Shown in pieces: positions 9,011-49,054 of a DNA stretch of 64,000 bases. Origin of the DNA: Desulfosporosinus sp. FKB (GTDB lineage Bacteria; Bacillota; Desulfitobacteriia; Desulfitobacteriales; Desulfitobacteriaceae); assembly GCF_002196705.1 (NCBI RefSeq), contig NZ_NADJ01000028.1:1-64000 (forward strand). The letters run 5' to 3'. The notes under the pieces were generated by a model that saw only the letters and a list, made by a program, of their open reading frames with translations, was not told the origin of the DNA and made no database searches. Numbering within the stretch: position 1 is the first letter of the stretch; each line of letters opens with the position of its first letter. Position numbers and translations under genes: made by a program.

Positions 9011-11365
9011 CTATTCATTGTAAACCACATCTCGTTTATGATAGTCAATATGTTTAATAATCACGGCTGCTTTTTGTTGGTTAATAAGATCAGAGGCTTT
9101 GAGAATAAATTCCTCCGGATTGATATGGAACTGCTCGAACGTTTCAATGGTTATACCTTGTAGAATGCAGCACACATCATTTCGCGTTAAACCGGTTGCC
9201 TCAACGATCTTCCCGATTAAGTCGTACTTGACGGTCATGCTAACAGCAGAATGGACCTTTTCTGTTCTGCCTGCGGTTTTTTCAATGGCCTGCCCCCTAT
9301 GCAGAGTTCCTTTTGATTTAATGGTATCCATGTCACCATACTCGATCTTAAAGAAAATCCGAGGTACACTGAGGTCCCTATCTAAAGACTGAATTGACTT
9401 TTGGATCAATTCACCATTATCAAATTTAACCCCATTAGACAACTTGGCTCTTATTTTTTTCCAAAAAGTATTTAAAGTCCTCATCTCAGCAGTTTGTTTA
9501 TGAAGTTTCATGCTGGTACTGTTACTTCGCGCATTCTCAGGTGCCATTACTTGAGGATCGTAAATTGTACCGTCAGCAATAGACTCTGCAAGCTCTAACT
9601 GAAGATGTTTAGCAAAGCTGTCATAGCTCTCATTGGCAATTATCGTTAAGACATTGACGTTATGGACATCACTGCCGAGGACATTAGCGTCCATTCTCTC
9701 GCCATAGTTGTTGACACAGAGGCGAAGACCCCGGCCTATCTCTTGGCGTTTCCTTATATCTGAGGAGCTCCGCTTGAGTGTACATATCTGAAAAACGTTA
9801 GGATTATCCCATCCTTCGCGCAGGGCCGAGTGGGAAAAAATAAAGCGCACCGGCTCTTTGAAATCTAAGAGTCTTTCTTTATCCCTCATGATTAAATTGT
9901 AGGCGCCTTCATCATCGGAAATTAACGATTTCCTATCACCGATTTTACTGTTAGTCATTCGTTTATTTCGTTTATCAATGGAGAAATAACCAGCATGTGT
10001 TTTGTCAGGATTTATTTCCTTGAGAAATTGAAGGTAATCATAGTCCCTACAAATTAATTCCCATTCTTTAAGCGTTTCCCGATATTCCTCTTCAAAAATA
10101 TCTGCATAGTTACCGTTAAATGCTTTTCCGGTTTCATCATATCGTTTATAGTTTGCGACCTCGTCGATAAAGAAAAGCGATAAAACTTTTATACCACTGC
10201 GATGTAATTGATGTTCTCGTTCTAAATGTGATTTAATCGTTTCTCTGATTTGAATCCGACGTATCTGTTCTTCATTAACTGAACCGAAAATATCCCCGGC
10301 CGCTATGACAACACCATTCGTAAATTCTACGGTATTATTTAAACCGTCGATTTTAGAAACAATATACCCCCTATATTCCTCCAACCCACCAGAATGAGTA
10401 TAAAAATCATACCTTTCTTCAATCATTCTTCTTACCGTTCGTACACTATTCCTGCTCTTCACTTCAAACTCAAAAGCTGCCGTTGGAGGACGATCATCAT
10501 ACAAATTAATTTTCTCAAAATACAAATAGCCCTCTGTGGCTGTAGTTCCAGTAATTGATATTCCCTTGACAGCAATTTTTTTCACTAGTTGCCTATTATA
10601 GGCTTCCAAAGCATCGAGTCGGTACACCAGGTTGTAGAGAGAATTTTTTTTATGTGTTGCTGAATAACGCAGTGTTAATAAGGGATTAAATTCTTTAAGC
10701 CGCTCTTTCGTGGCTATTCCTTCCACCGACTGAGGTTCATCGATAATGAGTATTGGATTGGTCGCTGCCAGAACCTCAATGGGCCTGCGTGAGCGAAAAC
10801 TATCCAGATTCATATAAATACGTCTGGCATCTTTTCCGCGGGAATTAAAGGCTTGCGAGTTTATAATCATAACGTTGATCCCACTGTCATAGGCAAACTG
10901 AGCTATTTTAGCCAAGTCCTTGGAATTATACACAAAGTAGCGAATCCTTTTTCCATAGTCTTCGGCAAAATGGTCTTTCGTAATATCAAGAGACTTATAA
11001 ACACCCTCACGGATTGCCACAGAGGGAACGATAATGATAAACTTGCTCCAGCCGTAATGCTTATTCAGTTCAAACAGAGTCTTAATATAGGTGTAGGTTT
11101 TACCTACACCTGTCTCCATCTCAATGGTTAGATTATATCTTCCATCTAACTTTGATGATGGTTCTAATCGATTTCTTCTTTGCAGTCTCTGAAGATTAGA
11201 CTTTATCAGGTCATCCGAAATCAAAAGCTTTTGGTTGGCATATCCCGAAGAACTCAACCCCGTGGCTATTGGAATTAAAGCAAAATTAGGTTGGCCGGCA
11301 AAAACTCCGCAAACTGCCGCTGCCGCATCTGCTTGAAATTTTTGATACGTAAACTTAAGCTTCAA
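9011..11365 (-). CDS. res: Type III restriction enzyme Res subunit, apparently lacking the nuclease domain
   Basis: SF2 helicase/translocase subunit that works with the Mod subunit upstream. Visible motifs: Walker A ETGVGKTYTY, DExx box as IIDEPQS, SALREGWDNPN and QEIGRGLRLCVN (motifs V/VI). TTG 11365 chosen: AGGGGAGGG upstream, and 13 bp from the mod stop. The protein is ~784 aa, whereas family members are usually ~950-1000 aa. It stops at VIIKHIDYHKRDVVYNE, close to where the C-terminal PD-(D/E)xK nuclease domain normally begins; no such motif follows in any frame I read. It may therefore be a non-cleaving or decayed subunit. Confidence 0.85.
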   Translation of the reverse strand: MKLKFTYQKFQADAAAAVCGVFAGQPNFALIPIATGLSSSGYANQKLLISDDLIKSNLQRLQRRNRLEPSSKLDGRYNLTIEMETGVGKTYTYIKTLFELNKHYGWSKFIIIVPSVAIREGVYKSLDITKDHFAEDYGKRIRYFVYNSKDLAKIAQFAYDSGINVMIINSQAFNSRGKDARRIYMNLDSFRSRRPIEVLAATNPILIIDEPQSVEGIATKERLKEFNPLLTLRYSATHKKNSLYNLVYRLDALEAYNRQLVKKIAVKGISITGTTATEGYLYFEKINLYDDRPPTAAFEFEVKSRNSVRTVRRMIEERYDFYTHSGGLEEYRGYIVSKIDGLNNTVEFTNGVVIAAGDIFGSVNEEQIRRIQIRETIKSHLEREHQLHRSGIKVLSLFFIDEVANYKRYDETGKAFNGNYADIFEEEYRETLKEWELICRDYDYLQFLKEINPDKTHAGYFSIDKRNKRMTNSKIGDRKSLISDDEGAYNLIMRDKERLLDFKEPVRFIFSHSALREGWDNPNVFQICTLKRSSSDIRKRQEIGRGLRLCVNNYGERMDANVLGSDVHNVNVLTIIANESYDSFAKHLQLELAESIADGTIYDPQVMAPENARSNSTSMKLHKQTAEMRTLNTFWKKIRAKLSNGVKFDNGELIQKSIQSLDRDLSVPRIFFKIEYGDMDTIKSKGTLHRGQAIEKTAGRTEKVHSAVSMTVKYDLIGKIVEATGLTRNDVCCILQGITIETFEQFHINPEEFILKASDLINQQKAAVIIKHIDYHKRDVVYNE

Positions 11366-14125: not shown

Positions 14126-15109
14126 TTAGAACATTTCCTTGGTCATTTTGTCAATGACTTCATTTACCGTATCATAAACACCCGGGAAAGAACTCCAATT
14201 GCCTCCTTGAGTCAGACAAGGTATAAAATACAACTTCCCACAAGTTTTACATGCCCGTTCTACTTCTTTGCCAACTATTTCAGGAGTCCAAGCCGGGAAA
14301 TCGACGACACCGCTGTCGATATCTCCCATAAAACTAATCTTTCCGCCATAGTTTTTGATTAATTCCGGCGTATTGTTTGTTGTCATGACCCCCTGCCAAA
14401 TATCTACTCCCATATCAACCATAAAGGGCACCAAATTAGCTGCATAGGAATCACTGTGATGTATAATCAGCTCTACCCCATTAGCTTTATAGAAACCATA
14501 TATTTTCTTGTAAGCCGGAAGATAGAACTCTTCAAACATTTGCGGAGAAATAAAGGACGATTTTTGGCTTCCCCAATCATCATGATGAAAAATGCAATCA
14601 GGATGAAGACGATCAATCAAAACTTTAGCATAAGCTAACTCCTGTTCAGTAAGACGATCAATGAGTTCATGCATAGCTTCCGGCTCTTCATATAAAGCCA
14701 TTAAGGCATCTTCCATACTCATAAGATGATGGGTCATTTCAAATACTCCAGGTGCGACAAATACTGTTACAAATTCCTTGTTACGATCAACAGTTTTCGC
14801 ATGGGCAATAGCAGGTGCCCAATCTTCATCGGCTGTAGGGATTGGGGGCACTTTAACATAGCTCTTCCATTCGGTGATATCCTTTAGAACCTTATGCTCC
14901 TCGTCATGAACCGGAAAGCCGCCGAGTTGACCTTCCGGCCACCGGAAGGTAATACCCCAGTTATTTTTTATTGTTTGCCCAGGTTCAGGGAAGTTTCCAC
15001 CAGGATTAGGAGCTTCCATGATAAAATGCATAAATTCATATTGTTTTACAAATCGATCAGGATTTCCGCCCTTGATCGTTTCAAGTAAATTTTGCCGTTT
15101 CGTTAACAT
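14126..15109 (-). CDS. Corrinoid-dependent methyltransferase, URO-D fold (O-demethylase MT-I-like)
   Basis: Transfers a methyl group from a substrate to the cobalt of the corrinoid protein encoded directly upstream. The URO-D/MtaA/CmuA-type TIM barrel is recognisable (MLTKRQNLLETIKGGNPDRF start; IIHHSDSYAANLVPFMVDMG; GKISFMGDIDSG; a late Cys in FIPCLTQGG). The HxxD-type residues with this Cys could form the zinc site. The N-terminus resembles methyltransferase I proteins of acetogen O-demethylases, so a methoxylated or small methylated substrate is a fair guess. No methyltransferase II or reductive activator gene is in the window. 327 aa, normal for the family; ribosome binding site GAGGAGG. 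Confidence 0.75.
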   Translation of the reverse strand: MLTKRQNLLETIKGGNPDRFVKQYEFMHFIMEAPNPGGNFPEPGQTIKNNWGITFRWPEGQLGGFPVHDEEHKVLKDITEWKSYVKVPPIPTADEDWAPAIAHAKTVDRNKEFVTVFVAPGVFEMTHHLMSMEDALMALYEEPEAMHELIDRLTEQELAYAKVLIDRLHPDCIFHHDDWGSQKSSFISPQMFEEFYLPAYKKIYGFYKANGVELIIHHSDSYAANLVPFMVDMGVDIWQGVMTTNNTPELIKNYGGKISFMGDIDSGVVDFPAWTPEIVGKEVERACKTCGKLYFIPCLTQGGNWSSFPGVYDTVNEVIDKMTKEMF

Positions 15110-15142
15110 AATTACCCCTCCTCATTTTGTTGAGATGGTTTA

Positions 15143-15775
15143 TCAACCTTTAACTAATTCCACAGCTTTTACGGCTGCGCTGCCTGCATCGGGAGCAAAA
15201 CCGTCTGCACCAATTGATACTGCAAATTCTGCAGTTACCGGCGCACCGCCGATAATTACCTTAAAGCCTGTCAATCCGCTGGATTTAAGGGCTTGTACAG
15301 TTTCTTTCATAGCCGTCATTGTTGTTGTAAGAAGACCTGAACATGCCACTAACGTTACATTTCTGTTTTCTTTGACAGCCTCGACGAATTTAGCCGCCGA
15401 TACATCAACCCCAAGGTTAACAATCTCAAATCCAGCGCTTTCTATCATCATTGACACAAGGTTTTTGCCAATATCATGAAGATCGCCCGCAACGGTACCT
15501 ATAACACATGTCCCATAAGAAGCTGTACTTTGTCCAGCAAAAAGCGGCTTAAGTATATCGACACCTTTAGACATAGCCTTAGCCGCCATCAACATTTCCG
15601 GGACAAATATTTCCCCGGCTGAAAATTTATCACCAACAATGCTCATTGAGTCGACCATGGCTTGGAGAATATTTTGGGCTTCATTTCCTTCATCCAAGGC
15701 TTCCTGTACCAACCCAGGAATGAGTTTAGCTTTTCCCGACTGCACCATTGCCTTAACTTCTTCAATCTTAGACAT
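15143..15775 (-). CDS. Corrinoid protein of methyltransferase system (MtaC/MtbC-like)
   Basis: Carries the methyl group on a bound corrinoid between methyltransferases. Residues ~1-85 form the four-helix cap (B12-binding_2), residues ~88-210 the Rossmann B12-binding domain. The cobalt-ligating motif is D98-L-H100-D-I-G103 in TVAGDLHDIGKN. A GGAPVT loop near 177 completes the nucleotide-tail site. ATG after GAGGAGG; 33 bp upstream of the methyltransferase gene, so both are one operon. Confidence 0.93.
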   Translation of the reverse strand: MSKIEEVKAMVQSGKAKLIPGLVQEALDEGNEAQNILQAMVDSMSIVGDKFSAGEIFVPEMLMAAKAMSKGVDILKPLFAGQSTASYGTCVIGTVAGDLHDIGKNLVSMMIESAGFEIVNLGVDVSAAKFVEAVKENRNVTLVACSGLLTTTMTAMKETVQALKSSGLTGFKVIIGGAPVTAEFAVSIGADGFAPDAGSAAVKAVELVKG

Positions 15776-15959
15776 TTCTTAAGTCCTCCTCGTTAATTAT
15801 TACCAATTATCTGTTATCAGTTATTGCTTTACCCAATATTTTAACGTATAGTAACAGCACATTAAAGGAGCATGTATTATATAATTTTAGTTCAGCCTGA
15901 ATTATTTAATTAAATTTAATTTCAGCATTCACCATTTCCAATTATCTCATATGCAGAAA

Positions 15960-27878: not shown

Positions 27879-29927
27879 CTAAACTTCTTCAGAGAAGATC
27901 TGATAAATCGGTGCTCCTTCGCATTGTGCGGGGAAACGCAAACCGAGCAATACGGCGACCGAAGGTGCAACATCAACTTGACGGATTGTACGCTCGGTTG
28001 TAAATCCGGACTTAATACCGGAACCAGCCGCTACGAAAACTGGGGAAACTGAGGTATCAAAATATCCTTCTGAAGTTGAAATACTGTCACCATGCAACCT
28101 GTTATAGCCTTCTTCTACGGAGAAGAAGATATCACCGCATTCTGGCCCGTTTGTACCAATTAACACAGCATCCTTATTTCTGAGGCAAATACCGATAACA
28201 CGTTTGCCCGTTCTCTCATCTCTATAATTATATAAGTCAGAGATGATTTGTTCTTCTAAATCATATTTATCTTTCGGGTCAACAATACCATATTTGTCTC
28301 GACCTTTGAGGTTAATGTAGATATAGTTACTGCGGATTTGAACGGCTCTCGTCTTTTCCCAATCTACTTCCCTGATGGAATTACCGTTCTCGTCTTTCTT
28401 CATCACGGTATATCCCAATTTTTCCATAACTTTGGTATTGAGACCGCCATATTCTCCGATAATTGGCGGTACATTTTCGCCAACGATGAGGCCATGGTCG
28501 CTGAGAATAAATACTGTCCAACCTTCATCCAGTAAATGGAGGAATTCGCCAAAATACTTATCGGTCTGGATATAGAATTTTTCAATGAACCCTTGATACG
28601 TTTTTTCATCGGTATAATTCCAAGGCTCTAACGTCTTGCCAAGATGCCACAATTGATGACCGGCACAGTCAATGTTGTGAAGATGTGAAAATACAACTTC
28701 ATATCCTTTTTCTTTGATGGCATAATTCAGACAGTCAGCTTGCCATTTGTTATAAAGATCCCAAGAGGGTTCGAAGATTTCCCGGACTAATTCAGCATCT
28801 TCTCCACCAATTAAGCTAACAGGTGGAACCTCTCCGACGTTGCTCTTAATTTCCTGGTAAAGAGATTTGGGATGCCATAATTGATCATTGGAAATATCAA
28901 GCGCATTACTGATCCATAGTCTCACTCGATTTCCTACCGGGTCAAGTTCGAGAATCTTCATTGAACGGCAGGCCGGTTTAGTGACTTCTTTTTTGGTTAC
29001 GTCATCAATAATACCGGTTACCATTTTATCACGTTCCAGGACAACAATCGGAGCTTCTGCTTTCTTATTCTTGTAAATAGCCACACGATCATATTCACCG
29101 GCTGCATTTTTCAGAATAAGCGCAGGTCGTCTCATCACACCGCCAGAAGTTAAGACAGTAAATTCCTTGGAACCTTCGGGAGCATTAGCCCAACCAGTAG
29201 CCTCTTTAAGGGGAGAATTCACAATGTCGTAGGCAACCTTACTGCCAATGACAACTTCGGTATCTTCATCATCCATGACGTAAGTGCGGATTTCTCCACC
29301 TTGACGAGCAGTGTCACCCCACCAAAGTTCCATCATTTCGTCATCAACATCATTGTCCAGTGTGTCTTCCAAATCAGTAATGATACAGCCTACCCCTGCC
29401 GGCTTGTCAACTCTTGGGGCGTAACGCACTTCTTTAATTTCAGGTGTAGCTACGATAACCTTTTCCCAGTCAAGCTGGGCAACGCCCATGTTCACAGAAC
29501 CAGGCTGCGTACCATCGACTACACTAAGATTTTCGCTGTGAGAGGTTGGCGGCCAAGAACTCCCCGGCCAGTGCCATACTAATGTTTTCATTCCTGCTTC
29601 AGCACTAACATTCCAGACTTGTTCTGCAAGACAGTTGCGTGAATCCATATTATAGACAACAGCATCGAGACTTTCAGGAGATTGTCTCCAATAACATGTG
29701 ATACCATGAGTTCCTGGATAGGCGCCTGTGGCAAGGGTTGTCCAACATGGCGGAGTAATTGTAGGAATTGCACCAAGCAGACGGATATCTTCTCTAGCAG
29801 CTCCACGATCAATGAATTTTTGTAAGTTAGGCATTTTCCCTTCTGCCAAGAACTTTTTACTGATTCTTGGGTCCATTCCATCAACGCCCAATACCAATAA
29901 CTTATTGGTAAGTGCTGTTCTTTTCAT
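27879..29927 (-). CDS. Type I phosphodiesterase/nucleotide pyrophosphatase-family hydrolase (alkaline phosphatase superfamily)
   Basis: 682-aa soluble protein with no signal peptide. Metal and nucleophile motifs are in order: LLVLGVDGMDPR (first Asp), PCWTTLATGAYPGTHGI (nucleophile Thr), HNIDCAGHQLWH (Asp/His), LSDHGL (Asp-His) and a late RLHGDS His. Two large inserts (~130-360) distinguish it from short members. It is probably co-transcribed with the MFS transporter 59 bp upstream, so it may hydrolyse an imported phospho- (or sulfo-) ester. The substrate cannot be read from sequence; proximity to the choline locus invites but does not prove a choline-ester role. Confidence 0.82.
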   Translation of the reverse strand: MKRTALTNKLLVLGVDGMDPRISKKFLAEGKMPNLQKFIDRGAAREDIRLLGAIPTITPPCWTTLATGAYPGTHGITCYWRQSPESLDAVVYNMDSRNCLAEQVWNVSAEAGMKTLVWHWPGSSWPPTSHSENLSVVDGTQPGSVNMGVAQLDWEKVIVATPEIKEVRYAPRVDKPAGVGCIITDLEDTLDNDVDDEMMELWWGDTARQGGEIRTYVMDDEDTEVVIGSKVAYDIVNSPLKEATGWANAPEGSKEFTVLTSGGVMRRPALILKNAAGEYDRVAIYKNKKAEAPIVVLERDKMVTGIIDDVTKKEVTKPACRSMKILELDPVGNRVRLWISNALDISNDQLWHPKSLYQEIKSNVGEVPPVSLIGGEDAELVREIFEPSWDLYNKWQADCLNYAIKEKGYEVVFSHLHNIDCAGHQLWHLGKTLEPWNYTDEKTYQGFIEKFYIQTDKYFGEFLHLLDEGWTVFILSDHGLIVGENVPPIIGEYGGLNTKVMEKLGYTVMKKDENGNSIREVDWEKTRAVQIRSNYIYINLKGRDKYGIVDPKDKYDLEEQIISDLYNYRDERTGKRVIGICLRNKDAVLIGTNGPECGDIFFSVEEGYNRLHGDSISTSEGYFDTSVSPVFVAAGSGIKSGFTTERTIRQVDVAPSVAVLLGLRFPAQCEGAPIYQIFSEEV

Positions 29928-29986: not shown

Positions 29987-31369
29987 CTAGGCCTCGAGCT
30001 CATCCAAGGAACGACCAGCGGTCTTCTCACCCCAGAGTCCAGTAGTAACAGCAACTAAAAGGAACATAACACCGATTATGCCGAACAACACTGTATATCC
30101 AAAGCCTTTGTAGATCATTGGTACAACGACCATAGCTACAGCAGTCAAAAGTCTGCCTGTACTGTAAATAAAGCCTGTACCGCTAGTTCTTATATGAGTT
30201 GGATAAGCTTCAGCTAAATAAGACCACATGACTACGAAAACACCATCCATCAGTACTCTGATAAAGAAACCTATGCCAACAATAACCATGGGGATCTTAA
30301 GGGTACCAAAGACAATTGTCAGTACTCCGACTAAGAGACTGTAGATAACGATGGGAATCTTTCTTCCGCCTTTATCAGTAAAGAAAGCAGCCAAATAGTT
30401 ACCGATAGGACTTCCAAACGATACGAGAGCAGACATCCACAAAGCGTCATCCAAGGAAAAACCATAATCATTTAATAATGTGGGCATCCAGCCAAAGAAC
30501 ATAAAGTAACCAACTGTAATACAGCAGACCATAATGACTAGAACACTGGTTTTCCGGGCATATTTCTTGCTGAAGATTTCTTTAAGTGTCTCCATGGTTC
30601 CAGCCTCTTTGGGAGCATTATTTGCTGGGTCAATACTGGCTTCATTGTTAATGTCAACTTTTTCATCCTTAATAAATCTTTGAATAACCTTTTCGGCCTC
30701 TGAATAACGACCTTTTGTAATAAGCCAACGCGGGGATTCCTTGAGCCAGCTTAGAGCTAAGATAAAGATAATAAAACCTGTTCCGCCGATAAAGAAAATA
30801 TATCTCCAACCATTAGGACTGCTTGGTACGATTTTTTCAGCAATTTGTCCAATTAAAGGTACGCTCAGCAAACCCGTTGCCAGCGATATGGCTTGCCATT
30901 TTCCCCTTGAAGCAGCCGGTAATATTTCTGTAATATACACCATAGCCACAACAACCATTGATAAGATACCAAAACCGGTTAAGGTTCTAAAAACTAAGAA
31001 GATTGCTGGATTGGGTGCCACTCCGTTTAAGATGGAAAAGACCGAGAAAAAGAACACGGAAAACAAAAATGCTTTTCTGCGGCCAATAACGTCAGACAGC
31101 CAGCCGCCGAACCAACAGCCGAACAACATACCTACAAAAGTACACGAGTTGACTATTCCGATCCACTCCATGGAAGCACCCCAATGCTTGGTTAAGGCAG
31201 GGGCTACGAAAGAAAACGTAAATAAATCCATTTGGTCAAACGCATAGGCTAGAGCAAGAATTATCAAAAATTTATAATGTTCCATACACATACGTGCTTC
31301 ATCGAGATAATGTCTTTTACCACCCGTTTTAACTGTTGCATCCAAATTTGATTCGGTCACTACGGCCAT
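29987..31369 (-). CDS. MFS transporter (AAHS/sugar-porter-like)
   Basis: 460 aa, twelve membrane segments. Typical motifs: DQMDLFTFSFVAPALTKHWG in TM1, GGWLSDVIGRRKAFLFSVFF (motif A), SPRWLITKGRYSEAEKVI (the PESPRWL-type loop after TM6) and a long central loop ~225-260. These fit organic-anion or polyol importers. Start ATG 31369. Divergent from the LysR gene across a 420-bp region with several palindromes, so LysR control is likely. Confidence 0.85.
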   Translation of the reverse strand: MAVVTESNLDATVKTGGKRHYLDEARMCMEHYKFLIILALAYAFDQMDLFTFSFVAPALTKHWGASMEWIGIVNSCTFVGMLFGCWFGGWLSDVIGRRKAFLFSVFFFSVFSILNGVAPNPAIFLVFRTLTGFGILSMVVVAMVYITEILPAASRGKWQAISLATGLLSVPLIGQIAEKIVPSSPNGWRYIFFIGGTGFIIFILALSWLKESPRWLITKGRYSEAEKVIQRFIKDEKVDINNEASIDPANNAPKEAGTMETLKEIFSKKYARKTSVLVIMVCCITVGYFMFFGWMPTLLNDYGFSLDDALWMSALVSFGSPIGNYLAAFFTDKGGRKIPIVIYSLLVGVLTIVFGTLKIPMVIVGIGFFIRVLMDGVFVVMWSYLAEAYPTHIRTSGTGFIYSTGRLLTAVAMVVVPMIYKGFGYTVLFGIIGVMFLLVAVTTGLWGEKTAGRSLDELEA

Positions 31370-34556: not shown

Positions 34557-35198
34557 TCATTTTACGATCTTAATTTTTGACGTTGATTTAAGACACATAG
34601 CATTGGCTTCTTCAGTGTCAAGATGACATTCAAGACTTGAGTTATCGTTGGCCCTTACAATAACATTCGTGTAAGTGCCCCCTCGAAGTCCCGTTGTTTG
34701 GATAGTTACCTCTTCCCCATCCGTAACGCCAAAATGTTTGGCATCTGCCAGGGACATATGAATATGTCTTTGAGCAATGATCAGTCCTTTTGTCAGCAAG
34801 ATACTTCCTTTAGGGCCAACCAGAGTTATACCCGGAGAACCTTCCAAGTCTCCAGACAATCTCACGGGTGCCGTAATCCCTAGTTTGAAACAATCTGCCA
34901 ATAATATTTCGATCTGCGATTCACGTCTCACCGGCCCCAGAATGCGGACCTTTTCGATAGCCCCTTTAGGCCCGCAGATGGTTAATGTCTCCTGACAGGC
35001 GTATTGCCCCGGTTGAGACAGATCTTTAGTTTTTGTCAGTTTGTATCCCGTTCCGAACAAAACATCTGCGTCAGATTGGGATAAATGAATATGTCTATTA
35101 GAGATTCCCACAGGTATGGAGTTGTCCTTCTCCTTTATATCTCCTCCCTCTTTGACCACTTCGAGTAAAAGCTCTACTAAAGTGTCGTACTTTCCCAC
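34557..35198 (-). CDS. pduL: PduL-type phosphate acetyl/propanoyltransferase
   Basis: 213 aa. Converts acetyl-CoA to acetyl phosphate inside the compartment, regenerating CoA. Two PduL halves with the metal-binding His motifs SNRHIHLSQSDAD and QRHIHMSLADAKHFGV, plus HLDTEEANA near the end. GTG 35198 chosen: GAGG lies 11 nt upstream, giving an N-terminal amphipathic helix (GKYDTLVELLLEVVKEG) that looks like an encapsulation peptide. Directly follows the second aldehyde dehydrogenase gene (1 bp). Confidence 0.94.
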   Translation of the reverse strand: MGKYDTLVELLLEVVKEGGDIKEKDNSIPVGISNRHIHLSQSDADVLFGTGYKLTKTKDLSQPGQYACQETLTICGPKGAIEKVRILGPVRRESQIEILLADCFKLGITAPVRLSGDLEGSPGITLVGPKGSILLTKGLIIAQRHIHMSLADAKHFGVTDGEEVTIQTTGLRGGTYTNVIVRANDNSSLECHLDTEEANAMCLKSTSKIKIVK

Positions 35199-35199
35199 T

Positions 35200-36690
35200 T
35201 TAGTAGTCACCTCTTTTTTTCAGGAGCGAAAGCACTTCTTCCACGAGGTTTTGAATCTGATCTTCACTGATACTGCCTGAAACACCGGTTTTCTGTGCCT
35301 CGCAGGAGAAAGAAGCGGAGTTATTGGCGTTTTCAGTGAAGTCTTTGATTCCATAGGCTATACGTTTGATATTGATTAAGTGCAACGGTGTTACATTATC
35401 GGAGGTTGCACTGCCGCCCCAAGTGCCGCAGCCTAAAGTAAAGGCCGGTGCAAGCCCAGTACTTGCTCCCACTCCGCCTTGACTTGAGGAAGTATTGACT
35501 AAAATCCTAAAAACAGGTTTTTCGGAGAACTTCTTAGCTATTTCAGGATTTTCTGTATGGATAGAGATGCTATGGCCTACTCCGCCATTATTCAATAATC
35601 TGATGCTTAAATCACAAGCTTCTTGCCAATCTTTAACGGTATAAAAAGCTAATACTGTTGTTAACTTTTCATAAGACAGCGGGTATCCTTCACCCACTCC
35701 CTGTTGTTCACCCAACAGCACTTTTGTTCCCGGGGGAATTGATATACCAGCAGTATTGGCGATGACTTCCGAAGATCTGCCTACCATTTTGGCATTCATC
35801 GCATGTCCTTTAACAAATAACTTCTTGCTTACCTGCTCTGTTTCCGCAGGTGTCATGAAATAACCGCCTTGGCGTTTGAACTCCTCTACAACTTGATCAC
35901 GAATACATTCTTCCACAATAACGGATTGTTCAGATGCACATATGGTTCCGTTGTCAAAGGTTTTACTGGCTATAATATTTTTAACAGCTTTCGTTACATT
36001 AGCAGTTCTTTCGATAAAGGCTGGAACGTTTCCCGGGCCGACACCCAAAGCAGGTTTACCTGCACTATACGCTGCCTTTACCATGGCAGAACCGCCAGTC
36101 GCAATGATCATTGCAACCTCGTCACACTTCATAAGTTCATTGGTTGCATCCATCGATGGTTTAGAGATACAGCCAATAATATTTACAGGAGCACCGGCTG
36201 CAACCGCTGCATCATGCATCAATTTCGCTGCTTGATTTGTACATTTTAGTGCCGAAGGATGCGGGGAAAACACAATCCCGTTACGTGCTTTAATGGCAAT
36301 AATGGACTTATAGATCGTGGTTGAGGTAGGATTCGTTGAGGGAACGATTCCCATGAGCAATCCTACCGGTTCAGCGATTTCCGTAACCTTATTGACCGTA
36401 TCTTCACGAATGACTCCTATAGTCGGCATAGTTTTAATGAATTCATAAAGTTCTGTTGAGGCAAAGCGATTCTTAAAGGTCTTATCCTCAACCTTACCAA
36501 AACCTGTTTCCTCTACGGCCATTTTGGCCAATGCTACGGCATTTTCCTCTGCAGCTTTAACCATATTGCGAATGATTTTATCAATCTGTTCACTATTGAA
36601 TTTTGCAAGTTCAGCTTGTGCTAATTTAGCCTGACGGGCAAGATTCCTGGTTTCCTGTACAGACTGCAAATCATAATCAAAGCTTTCCAA
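35200..36690 (-). CDS. Acylating acetaldehyde dehydrogenase (catalytic Cys present)
   Basis: 496 aa. Oxidises the acetaldehyde made by CutC to acetyl-CoA with NAD+. ALDH fold with FDNGTICASEQ: the catalytic residue is Cys251 counting from the TTG at 36690 (AGGAGG 10 nt upstream). Cofactor motifs ATGGSAMVKAAYSAGKPALG and GVGPGNVPAFIE are intact. The C-terminal SISEDQIQNLVEEVLSLLKK forms an amphipathic helix typical of BMC encapsulation peptides, joined by a Ser/Asn-rich linker. It is the likely active one of the two paralogues in this operon. Confidence 0.93.
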   Translation of the reverse strand: MESFDYDLQSVQETRNLARQAKLAQAELAKFNSEQIDKIIRNMVKAAEENAVALAKMAVEETGFGKVEDKTFKNRFASTELYEFIKTMPTIGVIREDTVNKVTEIAEPVGLLMGIVPSTNPTSTTIYKSIIAIKARNGIVFSPHPSALKCTNQAAKLMHDAAVAAGAPVNIIGCISKPSMDATNELMKCDEVAMIIATGGSAMVKAAYSAGKPALGVGPGNVPAFIERTANVTKAVKNIIASKTFDNGTICASEQSVIVEECIRDQVVEEFKRQGGYFMTPAETEQVSKKLFVKGHAMNAKMVGRSSEVIANTAGISIPPGTKVLLGEQQGVGEGYPLSYEKLTTVLAFYTVKDWQEACDLSIRLLNNGGVGHSISIHTENPEIAKKFSEKPVFRILVNTSSSQGGVGASTGLAPAFTLGCGTWGGSATSDNVTPLHLINIKRIAYGIKDFTENANNSASFSCEAQKTGVSGSISEDQIQNLVEEVLSLLKKRGDY

Positions 36691-38694: not shown

Positions 38695-40023
38695 CTAACC
38701 CACCTTTATTACAATAGAGTTGTCTGTAATTTTCATAACAGTACCTGCCAGACTGGCATGAACTGAAGCCCCAAGGCTGTTGTCGGGAATTTTCCCGATC
38801 ATCTGACCGGCTTGAACTTGCTCACCTACAGCAACTACTGGGATTGCCGGGGCTCCAATGTGCTGACGCAAAGCAATCGTCAGATACTGAGGCTGAAAGT
38901 TGACGTTAGTCATCGGAGCCGGTTTGTCAAACTCTGTTAAGCCAATTCTGGCAATGAGTCGTTTGCTTGGAATCAGGCGATACTCTCGAGCCTCTCTCGG
39001 CTGAAATTCCATGGTTGTCGGTTGATATTTAATCCCCTGTTCTGCCAGCTTACCTTTGAAATAACGATTAATAGACCTGGGATGGAGATTTGCCGGACAG
39101 GAGAATAATTCGCAGGCATTGCATTCACAACACAATAAAGCGATTTGTTGTTCTTTAACATCTTCGAGATTGTAGTTCAAAGCCCGCATAACTTTATGAG
39201 GCTGAAGGTTATGACCTAAGAGATAACGCGGACACAAGTCGGTACACATTCTACATTGTTCACAAGCCGTTTTGCTGATGACCCGTGCTTGATCGAGATT
39301 GACTGACTTCTTGCGCATAAGAAAATGGTCTTTTTTCAGCAAAACATAACCTTTACTTTTTTTGGTGACATGACCATCCAAGGTCTTAAGAAGAGAACCC
39401 ATCATTGGACCGCCATCAATAACAGCATAGTCTTCTAAATTGTCTATACCGCATTGGCTGAATAGCTCACGGATCGGCAAACCGACAGGTACTTTGACAG
39501 TTAAACGCTGAGGTATATCACCTGCAACTGTGATATAGGTTTCCGTCACAGGTTTTCCGGACATGGCATTAAATACGTTGAGTGCGGTTTCAGCATTGAT
39601 TACAACACACCCTACTTTCAAAGGGATAGACGTTTCCGGAACAATTCGCTGAGTTAACTCATGAACCAAAACTTGTTCATCTCCGGCGGGATAAATATCC
39701 CGAAGTTCCATAACTCCCAGGTAACTTTCAAGACCTTGAGCAGCGATTCTTTTACGCATGTGGGCAATAACTTCTTTATGTTTGCCTTTAATCCCGATAA
39801 TGGCCTTTCTGGCCTCAATATATCTTCCTGCAGCTGCTAATCCCATGATGATTTCATCGGCCGACTGAACCATCAATTGTTGATCCACTCGCAAAAGAGG
39901 TTCACATTCAGCACCATTGAGTAAGATATACTCAGCTTTCGAAGTTAGTTTGGCATGAGTTGGAAATCCAGCTCCTCCTGCCCCAATAACTCCTGCATCC
40001 CTAATCATGTCCAGAAGATCCAA
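38695..40023 (-). CDS. pduS: PduS/RnfC-like flavo-iron-sulfur oxidoreductase
   Basis: 442 aa. N-terminal NADH/FMN-binding domain (GVIGAGGAGFPTHAKL, LLNGAECEPLLRVDQQLM), an SLBB domain (~165-220), then two [4Fe-4S] motifs, CEQCRMCTDLCPRYLLGH and CCECNACELFSCPANLHPRS, and a C-terminal biotinyl-lipoyl-like segment (~365-442; HIGAPAIPVVAVGEQVQAGQ). This is the PduS layout. In propanediol compartments PduS is a cobalamin reductase; in this B12-free pathway it more likely oxidises NADH and hands electrons to PduT. Confidence 0.93.
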   Translation of the reverse strand: MDLLDMIRDAGVIGAGGAGFPTHAKLTSKAEYILLNGAECEPLLRVDQQLMVQSADEIIMGLAAAGRYIEARKAIIGIKGKHKEVIAHMRKRIAAQGLESYLGVMELRDIYPAGDEQVLVHELTQRIVPETSIPLKVGCVVINAETALNVFNAMSGKPVTETYITVAGDIPQRLTVKVPVGLPIRELFSQCGIDNLEDYAVIDGGPMMGSLLKTLDGHVTKKSKGYVLLKKDHFLMRKKSVNLDQARVISKTACEQCRMCTDLCPRYLLGHNLQPHKVMRALNYNLEDVKEQQIALLCCECNACELFSCPANLHPRSINRYFKGKLAEQGIKYQPTTMEFQPREAREYRLIPSKRLIARIGLTEFDKPAPMTNVNFQPQYLTIALRQHIGAPAIPVVAVGEQVQAGQMIGKIPDNSLGASVHASLAGTVMKITDNSIVIKVG

Positions 40024-43047: not shown

Positions 43048-44028
43048 TTAATGCTTCACCACTTTAGCCTCTAGGTCATAATCTTTAATCGCAGCAGCTA
43101 TAGTCTCTAATTCTTCTTCTTTAAAACTCAAATCTTCAGTAATAGAGTAATTCATCGCCAATTGCTTGTATTTGTTAATGCCCAATTTATGATAGGGAAG
43201 CAAATCAATACCTCGGAAATTTTTACGTTTATTAAAGGGCTGTAAGAATTTCATCGTTCGATGAATAGTATCTAAACTATCATTCATTCCGCGAATCAGA
43301 GGCATTCTGATTTTTACATTAAAGCCGCGGCGCAGGAGCTCACCTAAGTTTTCCAGAATGCGTTCATTACGTACTCCTGTTAGCTCATAATGTTTCTCAG
43401 AGACTACATGCTTAATGTCAAAGAGAATCAAATCTGTAAACTGGGCCACCTTAAGCAGCGAATCCAGTTTGGCATAACCGCAGGTTTCAATCGCAGTATG
43501 AATTCCCATGCTTTGACATTCCATGAGGAGATTGGCGGCAAATTCAGGCTGCATTGTAACCTCGCCGCCCCCAAGAGTGACACCTCCTCCGGAACTCAAG
43601 TAGAAGGGGGTATCTTGCTGAATAACTTCCAAAACTTCGGAGATTGATTTATCTGCGCCAGCGATAGACAACGCTTTTTGGGGACATATGGTCTCACACT
43701 TGCGGCAACCTCTGCAGGCAAGGTCTCTCCTGACGTTATGTCTCGGCGTCTCACCGTGGGACTGCGGCTCATCCTCTGCATTAATGAAATAATGGATATT
43801 CTCCGGGCAAACCGAGACACAACTTCCGCAATGCACGCACAAATCTTCCATGTACATGACTTGAAATTTTCGTTCGAGTCCCTCAGGATTTGAACACCAT
43901 TGGCATCTTAGGGGACAGCCTTTGAAAAAGACTAAGGTTCGTATACCTGGCCCGTCATAGATAGAATACTTCTGAACATTGAAGATCCTCGCTTTGCGCT
44001 CTAAGATGCTGTTTGATTCTGTAATCAT
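43048..44028 (-). CDS. cutD: CutD, glycyl-radical enzyme activating enzyme (radical SAM)
   Basis: 326 aa. Uses SAM and a [4Fe-4S] cluster to put the radical on Gly824 of CutC. Radical SAM motif C38-P-L-R-C42-Q-W-C45 within [20 protein letters not shown], followed by SNPEG. A ferredoxin insert carries two further clusters ([15 protein letters not shown] and [15 protein letters not shown]), typical of this activase class. [18 protein letters not shown] is the SAM-side motif. 26 bp after cutC. Confidence 0.95.
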
Positions 44029-44054: not shown

Positions 44055-46604
44055 TTAGAAATGATCCAAAACGGTCCGGCTAATAATCTCGTCCTGTACT
44101 TCTTTGCACAGTTCGACAAAGTAGGCACTGTACCCGGCAACACGAATAATTAAGTCTCTGTATTTCTCAGGTTCCACTTGGGCTTTCTTCAATACTTCAT
44201 TGTCAACATAACTGAATTGCATCTCTCCGTTGCCGAGAATCGATGCTGTCCTGAGCAGCGTAATCAGTCCGTTTTCTCCTTCCGGAGTTTCCAGAATGCC
44301 TCGTAAAAGTTTAAAGTTATGGACCATTCCAATGTTCATTGCATCATTATTCAGCTTACTGACGGATTTAATAATGGCTGTGGGGCCTAATTTATCCGCC
44401 CCTTGGGTCGGGCTGATTCCATCGGACAATGGGGTCCAAGCTAATCGGCCGTTAGGAGTTGCACCTGTAATTTCCCCGATGGGCGTATTGTTAGAAATTG
44501 AAAGAGTACCATGACTTAAGTAGGAATATAACATTTTAAAGGAATTGTGAACCCGTTCTGTCCAAGAGATAATATCTGAGGCAATATTGTCTGCGTAGTC
44601 GTCGTCATTCCCGTATTTCGGCGCATTCAAGCAGTCCGTACGCAAGGCTTCATAACCATTAAAATTGGAATTTAAGGCATCACGAATCTGTTTTAGGGTA
44701 TATTTTTTCTCGTCATAGACAAGTTTTTTAATGGCTGCCATCGAATCTGCGTAGGTTCCTAACCCAGAGAAGATCAAACCCGGGCCATAATTGACCAACG
44801 CTCCCCCATTGGTCACATCGATGCCTTTTTCCATGCAGCCTTCCACTAACAAGGACATCAACGGTTTAGGAACAAGTTCTCTATGAACCCGTTGACTGAT
44901 CACAGTACCGATAGCTGATAAACGGATAATATGTTCAATTTGCTTTTTACAGGCAGCATCGAAGTCTTCGTAAGTTCTAAAATTATCGAGGTCTCCTGTG
45001 TCAAGCCCTTCCATTGTTCCATGCCATTTCATCATGCCGCGGTTCAAGACAAATTCGATGGCGATCGGCCATTGAGTATACCCGGTTGACGTCCATTGAT
45101 AGATTCGCCCGGACTTTTGCGGCTCGACACACCCCATCAAACAGTAGTCACGAGCATCTTCAATATTGAAACCCTTAGACAGCATCATCTTGATATGGGT
45201 ATCATCAAAGTGACAGGCGGGAAAGCCTAGACCTGCTTTAACAACGTCGACAATTTTCTTTAAATATTCATGGGGTGATTTATTGTGAATCCGACAGGCG
45301 AGAGCCGGTTGATACATCCTGGTAATACGAACAGCATCCATGATCAGATAGGTCAAATCATTCGTCGCATCACCGCCGGTTCTTTTCTGGCCGCCCACGG
45401 TACAGTTAATAAATGGTTGATAGCCTGCGAAGTATTTCGCCCCCATTTCACTGGACAGCCACATAACTTCAGCACATTTAATAATGAAACAGCTTACTAA
45501 TTCAAAAGCTTGTAATTTGTTCAGACGGCCTTCTTCCATGTCGGCCTTGTACATGGGGTAAATATATTGATCCAAACGTCCGAGAGAAATCCCTGTTTGG
45601 TTTTCTTCCACCATAAAGAGGGATTCCAGCGTCCAGACTGACTGAAGCGCTTCATGGAATGTTCGCGGCGGATTAGCAGGCACCTTTGTCAAAATCTCAG
45701 AGATCTTATAAAGTTCCTTCTTACGTTCTAGATCTTCTTCCCTGTCAGCCAGTTCCCGTGCATAGTCTGAAAGACGTTTGGCGTAGGCTAATATTCCGTC
45801 ACAAGTTTCAATTTCTGCTTTGTAGAAGTAGATTTTATCAATGTCATCAGGGTTTCCCATGGACAATTTATTTAATTTATCAACAGCCTCTTGCCTTACA
45901 CCATTAATTCCCTTTTTGGCAAGAATAATATCGTAGCCTGGGCATGTGTCTCCCCCGCCGTTGAGTTGATGATAGGATAGATCACTAACAAAGGCTTCGC
46001 CGGAAAACGACCAGACACCGGCTTCTTCATATTGCGTCTGGCAAATTTCATCAACACTTTTACCTTCCCAGAAAGGAAAAATCTCCTCCCGTAAAATACG
46101 CTTATCCTCTTCACTGATTTGAAAGGGATCCTGCGGTCTCGTCGCCATTGTATCCAGTTCATCCCGAACCCATCTCCAAGCAATATCCGGAGAAACAGCA
46201 CCTGTCCGCGGTTTTCCACAGGGATGACCGACAATCAGCTCATCCTTTTGAATTAATAAAGGCGCTGTCTCACAAGCTCTTCTAAAGCATTTAGCCCGCA
46301 GCAAAATTTTAGGCATGCCTGGATTTTCTTTTGCCACTTGAGTAAACGCTCTGGCACGATAAATGCTCACACTAGGTTTTGCTTTTAGATAAGCATCGCG
46401 CAGCCGTTTCAAACGCGGCGTCAAGCTGGTAATTTCTCCTGCAAATACAGGTGATTTTGGTTCACTTGCCCATGAAGGATTAGATTTATTGACAGTTAAT
46501 TCCTTGGAAATCCCCTCAAACAGTTTCATGATGGCCGCCTTTTCATCCGAAGACAAGTTTTTGGTGGCATCGGCAAATTTGGTCGAAAAGTCTTTTGGAT
46601 TCAA
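44055..46604 (-). CDS. cutC: Choline trimethylamine-lyase CutC
   Basis: 849-aa glycyl-radical enzyme splitting choline to trimethylamine and acetaldehyde in the compartment lumen. Residues match CutC of Desulfovibrio closely as I know it: [15 protein letters not shown] (substrate-site Tyr/Asp), [20 protein letters not shown] with thiyl Cys492 and base Glu494, and the glycyl loop RVAGYS with Gly824. The N-terminal [20 protein letters not shown] helix is a probable encapsulation peptide. The choline-specific GCVEP...[11 protein letters not shown] block separates it from glycerol/propanediol dehydratases (GRM3/4). Confidence 0.97.
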
Positions 46605-46636
46605 ACTATGGTCCTCCCTTATACTTACTTAAACCT

Positions 46637-48079
46637 TCAACGAGCAGCGAGCTGCTCCAGCAATTTTTCCAGCAGAGCTTTCAAATCCGGTGAAGTTTCT
46701 CTTACGTCCTGTGTGATATCTTCTAAAACCCGCACGCCGTAACCAACTTTGCGTATATTAATCAAGTTCATTGGTGAAACATTATCAGAAGTGAAACCGC
46801 CGCCGGCTGTACCGCAACCCAATGTCATAGCCGGAAAAAGATTGGTTGTCGCTCCAATACCCCCCAATGTGGCAGGCGTATTGACCAAGAGTCTTGAAAC
46901 TGGTTTTTTCAGAGCAAACTCTCGAATCACAGTCTCATTGCGAGAATGGATAACAAGGGTATGCCCCCTTCCTTCATTAAGCAACAATTCAATACATTTT
47001 TCACAGGCATTAAGCCAATCCTTTTCAACGTAAAAAGCCAGCACAGGGCAGAGTTTTTCTTTCGAGTAGGGATTGGTATCGGACACATATTTCTGTTCGG
47101 AAATCAAAACTTTTGTTTCATCAGGAACACGCATCCCGATTTTTTCTGCTATCTCTACAGCCGATTTGCCGACAATTTCCGGATTAATATTGCCATCCGG
47201 GGACAGGAAAAACTTGCTGAGCTCTTCTGACTCCCCTTCGGACAGGAAACAAGCCCCATTATTTCTCAGCTCTTGTCTAACTTCCCCTGCAATACATTCC
47301 TCGACCACAATTGATTGCTCTGAAGCAGAGATGATGCCATTGTCAAAGGTTCTGCTGGCAATAATGTCTGCCACTGCTTGCTTAATATCAGCAGTACGCT
47401 CAATAAATGCCGGTCCATTGCCCGGCCCTCCGTAAATAACGGGTTTTCCCGAAGAATAGGCAGCAGCAACCATTTTAGGTACACCCGTAACCAGAATCAA
47501 TGCCGTATCTGTATGATTCATCATAGCAACTGTACCCGGTACAGTAACTGTCCTTAAATATCCGATTGCTCCCGAGGGCAAACCGTTAGCTTCGGCCGTC
47601 CGTATCAGTATTTCAAGAGTTTTGTTTATGGTCTTTTTGGCCCTGGGATGAGGTGAAAAAACAATCGCATTACCCGATTTAACGGCGATCAAGGCTTTAT
47701 AGACAGTTGTTGATACCGGATTTGTCGAAGGAGGCAAGGCAACAATAACACCCATGGGAACGCCAATATCCATGGTCTTGTTGACTTTGTCTTCTGCAAT
47801 GATACCAACAACGTTCATATCTCTGATTTTCTTGAACAGAAAGTCACTGGCAAAGACATTTTTAAGATACTTATCCTGCCATTTCCCAAATCCCGTTTCC
47901 TCGGAGGACATCACTGCAAGTTCTCGGGCACAGTTTAAAACTGCCGCAGCCATAGCTCCCACAATCTTATCCAGTTTTTCCTGTGGGAATGCTGCCAAAG
48001 ACGTTTGTGCTTCCCGCGCATTTTCCACCAGTATCCGGGCTTCTTGGATGGAAAGTAAATCCTGGTCGATCCGATCCAT
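46637..48079 (-). CDS. Aldehyde dehydrogenase paralogue with Ser in place of the catalytic Cys
   Basis: 480 aa, same subfamily as the enzyme at 35200 and aligned to it along the whole length, but the active-site block reads FDNGIISASEQ: codon 251 is TCT (Ser) where the paralogue has TGT (Cys251). The cofactor motif is also altered (VTGVPKMVAAAYSSGKPVIY versus TGGSAM; YGGPGNGPAF versus GVGPGNVPAF). The C-terminal TSPDLKALLEKLLEQLAAR helix is a clear encapsulation peptide. So it is probably packaged but unlikely to be a normal acylating dehydrogenase. ATG 48079 follows AAAGGAGGCGAGGAT; 32 bp upstream of cutC. Confidence 0.92.
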   Translation of the reverse strand: MDRIDQDLLSIQEARILVENAREAQTSLAAFPQEKLDKIVGAMAAAVLNCARELAVMSSEETGFGKWQDKYLKNVFASDFLFKKIRDMNVVGIIAEDKVNKTMDIGVPMGVIVALPPSTNPVSTTVYKALIAVKSGNAIVFSPHPRAKKTINKTLEILIRTAEANGLPSGAIGYLRTVTVPGTVAMMNHTDTALILVTGVPKMVAAAYSSGKPVIYGGPGNGPAFIERTADIKQAVADIIASRTFDNGIISASEQSIVVEECIAGEVRQELRNNGACFLSEGESEELSKFFLSPDGNINPEIVGKSAVEIAEKIGMRVPDETKVLISEQKYVSDTNPYSKEKLCPVLAFYVEKDWLNACEKCIELLLNEGRGHTLVIHSRNETVIREFALKKPVSRLLVNTPATLGGIGATTNLFPAMTLGCGTAGGGFTSDNVSPMNLINIRKVGYGVRVLEDITQDVRETSPDLKALLEKLLEQLAAR

Positions 48080-48126
48080 ATCCTCGCCTCCTTTCTCTAT
48101 CCAAATTAAAATCAACGAGCATCAGT

Positions 48127-48417
48127 TCACCAATCAATAACGTGTTTAGCGACAATCTTTTCAACGTCCGGATGAGGGTTGGCAATAACATTAGTACTAT
48201 AAATCTTACCTACTCTTTCGGCTGCTTTAACGCCGGCCTCAACCGCAGTTCTTACAGCCCCAACATCACCACGAACTACCACAGAAATTAATCCGGAGGC
48301 TACATTCTCATATCCAACCAGTTCTACGTCTGCTGCCTTGCACATCGCATCTGCAGCCTCAAGTATCGATACAAGTCCATAGGTCTCTATAAATCCCAAG
48401 GCATCATTTCTCTCCAT
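48127..48417 (-). CDS. BMC-H shell protein
   Basis: 96-aa BMC hexamer protein: [54 protein letters not shown]. The pore loop A-S-G differs from the GGG of the last BMC gene. ATG 48417 with AAAGGGGAA upstream. Second gene of the operon, forming a tandem pair with the BMC gene upstream. Confidence 0.94.
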   Translation of the reverse strand: MERNDALGFIETYGLVSILEAADAMCKAADVELVGYENVASGLISVVVRGDVGAVRTAVEAGVKAAERVGKIYSTNVIANPHPDVEKIVAKHVIDW

Positions 48418-48446
48418 GCAATTCCCCTTTTTCAAAGTAATTCATG

Positions 48447-48743
48447 TCAGTTATCAATATCATGCCGGGAAACAATTTTCCCTACTCGGCTTACGGGGCG
48501 CGGGATAACATGTGCAGCAACCATTTCGCCAATGGCAGCTGCCGCTGCTGCCCCTTTTTCCACAGCAGACCTTACTGCGGCAACATCACCTTTCACCATG
48601 ACGGTAACAAGACCTGAACCCATATTTTCGTAAGAAACAAGAACAACATTGGCAGTTTTACACATGACATCCACAGCTTGAATGGCCGGGACCATCCCTC
48701 TTGTTTCGACAAGACCCAAGGCTTCTTCTCCGAAATATTCCAT
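48447..48743 (-). CDS. BMC-H shell protein, first gene of the cut operon
   Basis: 98-aa BMC hexamer protein: EALGLVETRGMVPAIQAVDV, SYENMGSGLVTVMVKGDVAA, AAHVIPRPVSRVGKIV. ATG 48743 after GAGGAG at 8-nt spacing. The region upstream (48744-49343) is non-coding and should hold the operon promoter. Confidence 0.94.
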   Translation of the reverse strand: MEYFGEEALGLVETRGMVPAIQAVDVMCKTANVVLVSYENMGSGLVTVMVKGDVAAVRSAVEKGAAAAAAIGEMVAAHVIPRPVSRVGKIVSRHDIDN

Positions 48744-49054
48744 GGAACTACTCCTCATTCAAATATGCAGAAACCTTCCAAAGGTTTTATCCGCTCTTAC
48801 TAATGCACTGTTCAAATTACAAATCAAGTCTCAATTCCTGAGTTTTCACGTTTCACGAGTTTAAAAAAGACGATTACTCTTATTTTCAATGACTTTGAAT
48901 CGACAGCATTCTTTGCAGATAATTATATTACCTCTTCATAAAACTGTAATATACCAAACAGCTATAGGGGATATAAAGAAGACGTAATATGCTAATTCAC
49001 TTAAAGATTTACCGTATAATAGCTTGCATAATATATAAACGCTCGTCTTTGCCG

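Follow-up and report, generated by a model that had tools for sequence, protein, structure and literature searches.

The window, that is, the whole stretch of 64,000 nucleotides analyzed here, carries a choline locus with genes for CutC, CutD, shell proteins and two aldehyde dehydrogenases, which identifies it as GRM1-type (Table 1). One of the two aldehyde dehydrogenase genes lies between two BMC-H genes (48127-48758) and cutC, with its ATG at 48079 and its stop codon at 46637-46639 on the minus strand. The plus-strand triplet 'aga' at 47327-47329 makes codon 251 TCT, i.e., Ser within the motif FDNGIISASEQ, and residue 251 of the paralogue at 35200-36690 (minus strand, 48% identical) is Cys, in FDNGTICASEQ. 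The first-pass annotation had reported this replacement of the catalytic Cys in an intact reading frame with a ribosome binding site and a C-terminal helix, and all of these features are present. The product scored 648.5 bits against TIGR02518, above the curated cut-off of 620.1; it thus has the family score, but Ser251 in place of the nucleophilic Cys. This is a warning that automatic annotation labels such a pseudoenzyme as an active enzyme. Its C-terminal helix (DLKALLEKLLEQLAAR, residues 466-479 in the predicted model) is of the encapsulation type and is also found across its relatives; it was not clearly more amphipathic than its own shuffles (helical moment 0.39, with 11% of the shuffles equally high).

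Table 1. Features of the choline locus and of the Ser251 protein, with positions in the window.
Feature	Position	Strand	Basis and remarks
EutE/CutF-type acylating aldehyde dehydrogenase homologue without catalytic Cys	46637..48079	-	ORF, 480 aa
Ser251 codon TCT replacing catalytic Cys	47327..47329	-	sequence
Shine-Dalgarno AGGAGG	48087..48092	-	sequence; 7 nt ahead of ATG
C-terminal encapsulation-type helix DLKALLEKLLEQLAA	46643..46687	-	predicted helix 466-479; variable linker precedes
NAD-loop TGVPKM, residues 198-203	47471..47488	-	Gly200->Val specific to pseudoenzymes
YGGPGNGP loop, residues 216-223	47411..47434	-	pseudoenzyme-specific part is Tyr216 only
Oxyanion Asn120	47720..47722	-	kept in the Desulfosporosinus protein; role from PMC4762007
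Glu341, CoA/NAD-ribose glutamate	47057..47059	-	role from PMC4762007, PMC5311937
His373, base	46961..46963	-	kept here; match to His387/His449 inferred from motif
cutC, short choline TMA-lyase, 849 aa	44055..46604	-	TIGR04394, 1567 bits; directly downstream of the pseudoenzyme gene
cutD, CutC activase	43048..44028	-	TIGR04395
Presumed active (Cys251) acetylating aldehyde dehydrogenase	35200..36690	-	TIGR02518, 746 bits
BMC-H shell gene, upstream	48127..48435	-	order conserved in relatives; family name from sequence
BMC-H shell gene, upstream	48447..48758	-	order conserved in relatives; family name from sequence
PduL-type phosphotransacylase gene	34557..35210	-	family inferred from sequence; order conserved in relatives

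At 46604-46637, where many relatives carry the alcohol dehydrogenase CutO (e.g., locus L064, 11491-12660), the window lacks it, and the ORFs of its choline locus include no obvious alcohol dehydrogenase. NADH re-oxidation may thus run via a PduS/RnfC-like protein encoded at 38695-40023. Beside the choline locus, positions 27879-29927 encode a 682-aa protein resembling hydrolases of the alkaline phosphatase superfamily; its neighbors are a gene for a transporter (29987-31369) and one for a LysR-type regulator. This hydrolase-like protein could act on a precursor to free choline or a related compound.

Second aldehyde dehydrogenases of this kind have been described. According to the excerpts of Axen 2014 (PMC4207490) used here, each GRM1 locus that has two aldehyde dehydrogenases shows a replacement of the Cys by Ser or Pro, and a role as scaffold or regulator is proposed for the Cys-less protein; in those of Sutter 2021 (PMC8217296), the second copy of GRM1A and GRM1B is flagged as putatively inactive. 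Ser251 therefore adds one more case to what had been published. The CutF ancestry, selection and interface conservation described below do not figure in these excerpts and are added here. No experimental work on the function of the pseudoenzyme was found in the literature searched; Zarzycki 2015 (AEM) may already make some of the evolutionary points below.

Class-wide, phylum-wide and collection-wide searches yielded 139 distinct aldehyde dehydrogenases, 97 with Cys at position 251 and 42 without. The latter have Ser (33), Pro (6) or Ala (3), and all 42 come from GRM1-type choline loci of Desulfosporosinus, Sporomusa, Desulfotomaculum relatives, Veillonellaceae, other Bacillota and Desulfobacterales; distant members are under-sampled, since the collection was scanned with two peptide patterns taken from the core group (n = 33). 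The residues around position 251, FDNG..(A/S)SEQ, are retained. Catalytic roles were assigned after Cphy1178 and the R. palustris enzyme (PMC4762007, PMC5311937). Asn120 and His373 are each kept in 32/33 core members; Asn120 is replaced by Ser in 7/9 divergent members (8/42 overall), and His373 by Gln or Asn in 5/9 (6/42 overall). No nearby Cys takes over the catalytic position: the candidates Cys344, Cys359 and Cys362 occur in Cys251-bearing relatives too, and Cys344 varies among the pseudoenzymes. By analogy with the C269A variant of Cphy1178, which is inactive, the pseudoenzyme is very probably dead for CoA acylation.

The first-pass annotation had also pointed to a changed cofactor loop, and only part of that change marks the pseudoenzymes. 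Position 200 is Gly in 97/97 Cys-bearing relatives and Val in 40/42 pseudoenzymes, Lys202 is a fixed change within the core group, and Tyr216 is pseudoenzyme-specific. The GGPGNGP loop was rejected as a mark of inactivation, because Cys-bearing GRM2 CutF has it as well (TISGGPGNGPAF).

Phylogenetic analysis of 110 proteins placed every non-Cys protein on the same side of a single branch (SH-aLRT 100). Closest to them stood the Cys-bearing CutF proteins of Proteus, Providencia and Photobacterium (support 98), in a sister clade that also holds L086, which comes from a non-choline locus. In a reduced tree, pseudoenzyme and GRM2 CutF were again sisters, with support 100. We tested two placements in which GRM2 CutF, as a reversion from within the pseudoenzyme clade, was forced to join only part of that clade, and both were rejected (p-AU 0.0002). 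An origin of the pseudoenzyme by duplication of the 35200 paralogue was unsupported, as the two fall in different clades. These trees indicate that the catalytic Cys was lost once, long ago, in the GRM1 lineage, and that the pseudoenzyme is an orthologue of CutF and not a decayed copy of the active enzyme in its own locus; given Ser251, it is not an active CutF. The active aldehyde dehydrogenases of GRM1 loci form two clades, one of Bacillota (including 35200-36690) and one of Desulfobacterota (L084, L085 and L162-L164). They may have been recruited independently, though a single clade of all active partners was not rejected (p-AU 0.096). In the tree of CutC itself the outgroup branch was very long, making its rooting, and with it the direction of change between short and long CutC, unreliable.

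The gene order BMC-H, BMC-H, aldehyde dehydrogenase, (CutO), CutC, CutD is identical in GRM1 and GRM2 loci. The upstream neighbor of cutC is a non-Cys aldehyde dehydrogenase in 42/46 distinct loci with a short CutC (41 by script, plus L162 added by hand, where the pseudoenzyme ORF overlaps the open cutC frame) and a Cys-bearing one in 25/25 loci with a long CutC; both counts reflect few lineages and not independent events. Two loci, of Clostridium tarantellae (L101) and Tissierella simiarum (L111), have a long GRM2-like CutC of about 1,140 aa, and their Cys aldehyde dehydrogenase belongs to a lineage other than gammaproteobacterial CutF. Among the four short-CutC exceptions, L152 and L153 are otherwise complete GRM1 loci with full shell genes. 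They are natural negatives, with a gap at about 9204-9260 between a BMC-H gene and cutC. L165 has neither shell genes nearby nor a pseudoenzyme, and L166 lies at a contig end, with one BMC-T. In L161 (genome G018, 14424-15903, minus strand), the pseudoenzyme gene is interrupted by a 47-bp deletion in an otherwise intact choline locus. This genome is of the same genus and the locus lies on a single contig; the deletion is a natural knockout or an assembly fault. As the gene is missing in L152 and L153 and interrupted in G018, the pseudoenzyme is not strictly essential.

We compared rates of change in 18 genomes carrying both aldehyde dehydrogenase genes, using pairs with dS below 1.5. The median pairwise dN/dS of the pseudoenzyme was 0.090, compared with 0.058 in the active paralogue and 0.044 in CutC; the dN of the pseudoenzyme was 1.7 times that of the active paralogue, and 240/450 of its positions were invariant in the 18 genomes. 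The pseudoenzyme is thus under purifying selection, and the constraint is distributed unevenly. Interface segments 91-108, 381-393 and 434-450, whose approximate boundaries were carried over from Cphy1178 by offset, showed a variation of 0.109 versus 0.159 in the active paralogue (0.68 times), with only 0.2% of circular shifts of the interface mask equally low. Thinning to 11 genomes gave a ratio of 0.65 and the same rank. The cofactor domain was 2.2 times more variable than that of the active paralogue (1.8% of circular shifts equally high), and the Rossmann core 3.0 times.

AlphaFold2, run on a 40-sequence alignment, predicted a canonical aldehyde dehydrogenase fold (pLDDT 85), with low pLDDT near 246-251 and 420-431. 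The best PDB match of the model was 3k9d (Z 52.6, 54% identity), and 5j78/5j7i were also close. The mapped interface matches model strands 92-97, 102-108 and 440-446 and helix 382-391, and we infer that the protein is a tetramer. The constraint on the interface is supportive, short of proof, because the segment limits are approximate and the comparison was made for several regions.

We propose, with a probability of roughly 55%, that the Ser251 protein has retained CutF's structural job in the CutC-core assembly after catalysis was lost. This is the simplest reading, because orthology, the cutC-adjacent position, the tail helix and the interface are kept and the chemistry is lost. In recombinant GRM2 particles, CutF and the CutC N-terminal domain cross-link and enlarge the enzyme core (Kalnins 2020, PMC6971018). 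GRM2-type CutF has two jobs, acetaldehyde oxidation and the cross-linking of CutC into the core. In the GRM1 lineage, CutF lost its nucleophilic Cys once, and a separate aldehyde dehydrogenase, here that at 35200-36690, would do the chemistry. The old CutF would have been kept as an aldehyde dehydrogenase-fold oligomer with C-terminal tails that contributes to the assembly or cross-linking of the CutC core within the shell. That the pseudoenzyme binds or organizes CutC and the shell seems, on this analogy, slightly favored. The fuller scheme, in which CutF's jobs are divided in GRM1 organelles, with a dead CutF to build or cross-link the CutC core and a live enzyme, recruited separately, for the chemistry, is tentative, at a little under even odds. 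The additional loss of Asn120 and His373 in some pseudoenzymes and the absence of a pseudoenzyme beside the short CutC of the shell-less L165 speak for a structural role; the absence in L152 and L153, the deletion in G018 and a tail helix not clearly more amphipathic than its shuffles speak against it. Any contact with CutC must differ in GRM1, since the CutF-binding domain of CutC is absent there. Of the explanations offered in the first-pass annotation, the packaged structural scaffold is supported and gives the best reading.

Several pocket residues have persisted after the loss of the nucleophile, and a regulatory, ligand-binding role is for that reason the main rival. CoA, NAD(H) or an acyl ligand would still bind to the former pocket of the dead enzyme, which would tune aldehyde oxidation or assembly, either by itself or as part of mixed oligomers that include the active paralogue. 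Glu341, Gln255 and Glu254 are invariant (42/42) and His144 nearly so (41/42), and scaffolding alone would need none of Glu341, His144 and Gln255. The fixed Gly200->Val, Lys202 (in the core group) and Tyr216 also suggest a site that has been altered rather than abandoned. Nevertheless, the cofactor domain is the most relaxed region relative to the active paralogue, and Val200 and Lys202 lie in a loop that would pack on the NAD adenine, as inferred from Cphy1178 (PMC4762007). The derivation of the active partners from two tree clades, uncertain as it is, also counts against a sensor, which we regard as unlikely.

The gaps in distribution and the elevated dN might also be expected of a non-functional relic hitch-hiking in a mobile or co-regulated operon. 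Such a relic is improbable in view of the low dN/dS and the many invariant positions, of a reading frame that is open in all carriers seen but one, and of the deep age of the gene and its spread over Bacillota and Desulfobacterota.

Changed chemistry, with Ser251 as the nucleophile of an aldehyde hydrolase, buffer or esterase, had been another suggestion of the first-pass annotation. Ser is found in 31/33 core members, and its codons are all TCN with synonymous variation (TCA, TCG, TCT, TCC), so Ser has been maintained within the core group. However, Pro or Ala replaces it in 9/42 proteins, including one Pro and one Ala in the core group, and the catalytic His and the oxyanion Asn are gone in several members. 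The column thus shows a clade-wide loss of Cys with kept neighbors but not a conserved Ser; Ser itself is dispensable, and we consider a Ser-based activity very improbable. That an ordinary enzyme was misread through a sequencing or assembly error can be excluded even though TCT and TGT differ by one base, because the closest named relative, Desulfosporosinus acididurans (94% identity), and all other clade members lack the Cys, in independent genomes and with different codons.

The dead second aldehyde dehydrogenase of choline organelles has been a puzzle since 2014, and an origin from CutF turns it into a direct question, whether the dead protein organizes CutC. If the structural reading holds, this would be a pseudoenzyme dedicated to organelle assembly, conserved in both Bacillota and Desulfobacterota, and a clear case of an enzyme kept for a structural role, with a bearing on the assembly of a trimethylamine-making organelle.

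Among known systems, the inactive second aldehyde dehydrogenase of GRM1 loci, as presented in the excerpts of PMC4207490 and PMC8217296, matches the Ser251 protein in kind of locus, loss of Cys and CutC neighbor; the Axen 2014 excerpts give Ser or Pro at this position, and our survey adds Ala. GRM2 CutF of Klebsiella, Proteus and Providencia (PMC6971018) represents the sister lineage in the same gene position and shares the C-terminal encapsulation helix and the GGPGNGP loop, but it has Cys251 and is the sole aldehyde dehydrogenase found near CutC. Its contact with CutC needs the long CutC N-terminal domain (PMC6971018), which GRM1 CutC lacks. The active aldehyde dehydrogenase at 35200-36690 and EutE-type enzymes (3k9d, 5j78) resemble the pseudoenzyme in fold, length and TIGR02518 membership but have the catalytic Cys and the TGG loop, both absent from the pseudoenzyme. 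Finally, the C269A variant of Cphy1178 (PDB 5dbv), in which activity was abolished and the structure unchanged (PMC4762007), is likewise an acylating aldehyde dehydrogenase with an intact fold and no nucleophile, although it is an engineered mutant of a PduP-type enzyme only 29% identical to the pseudoenzyme.
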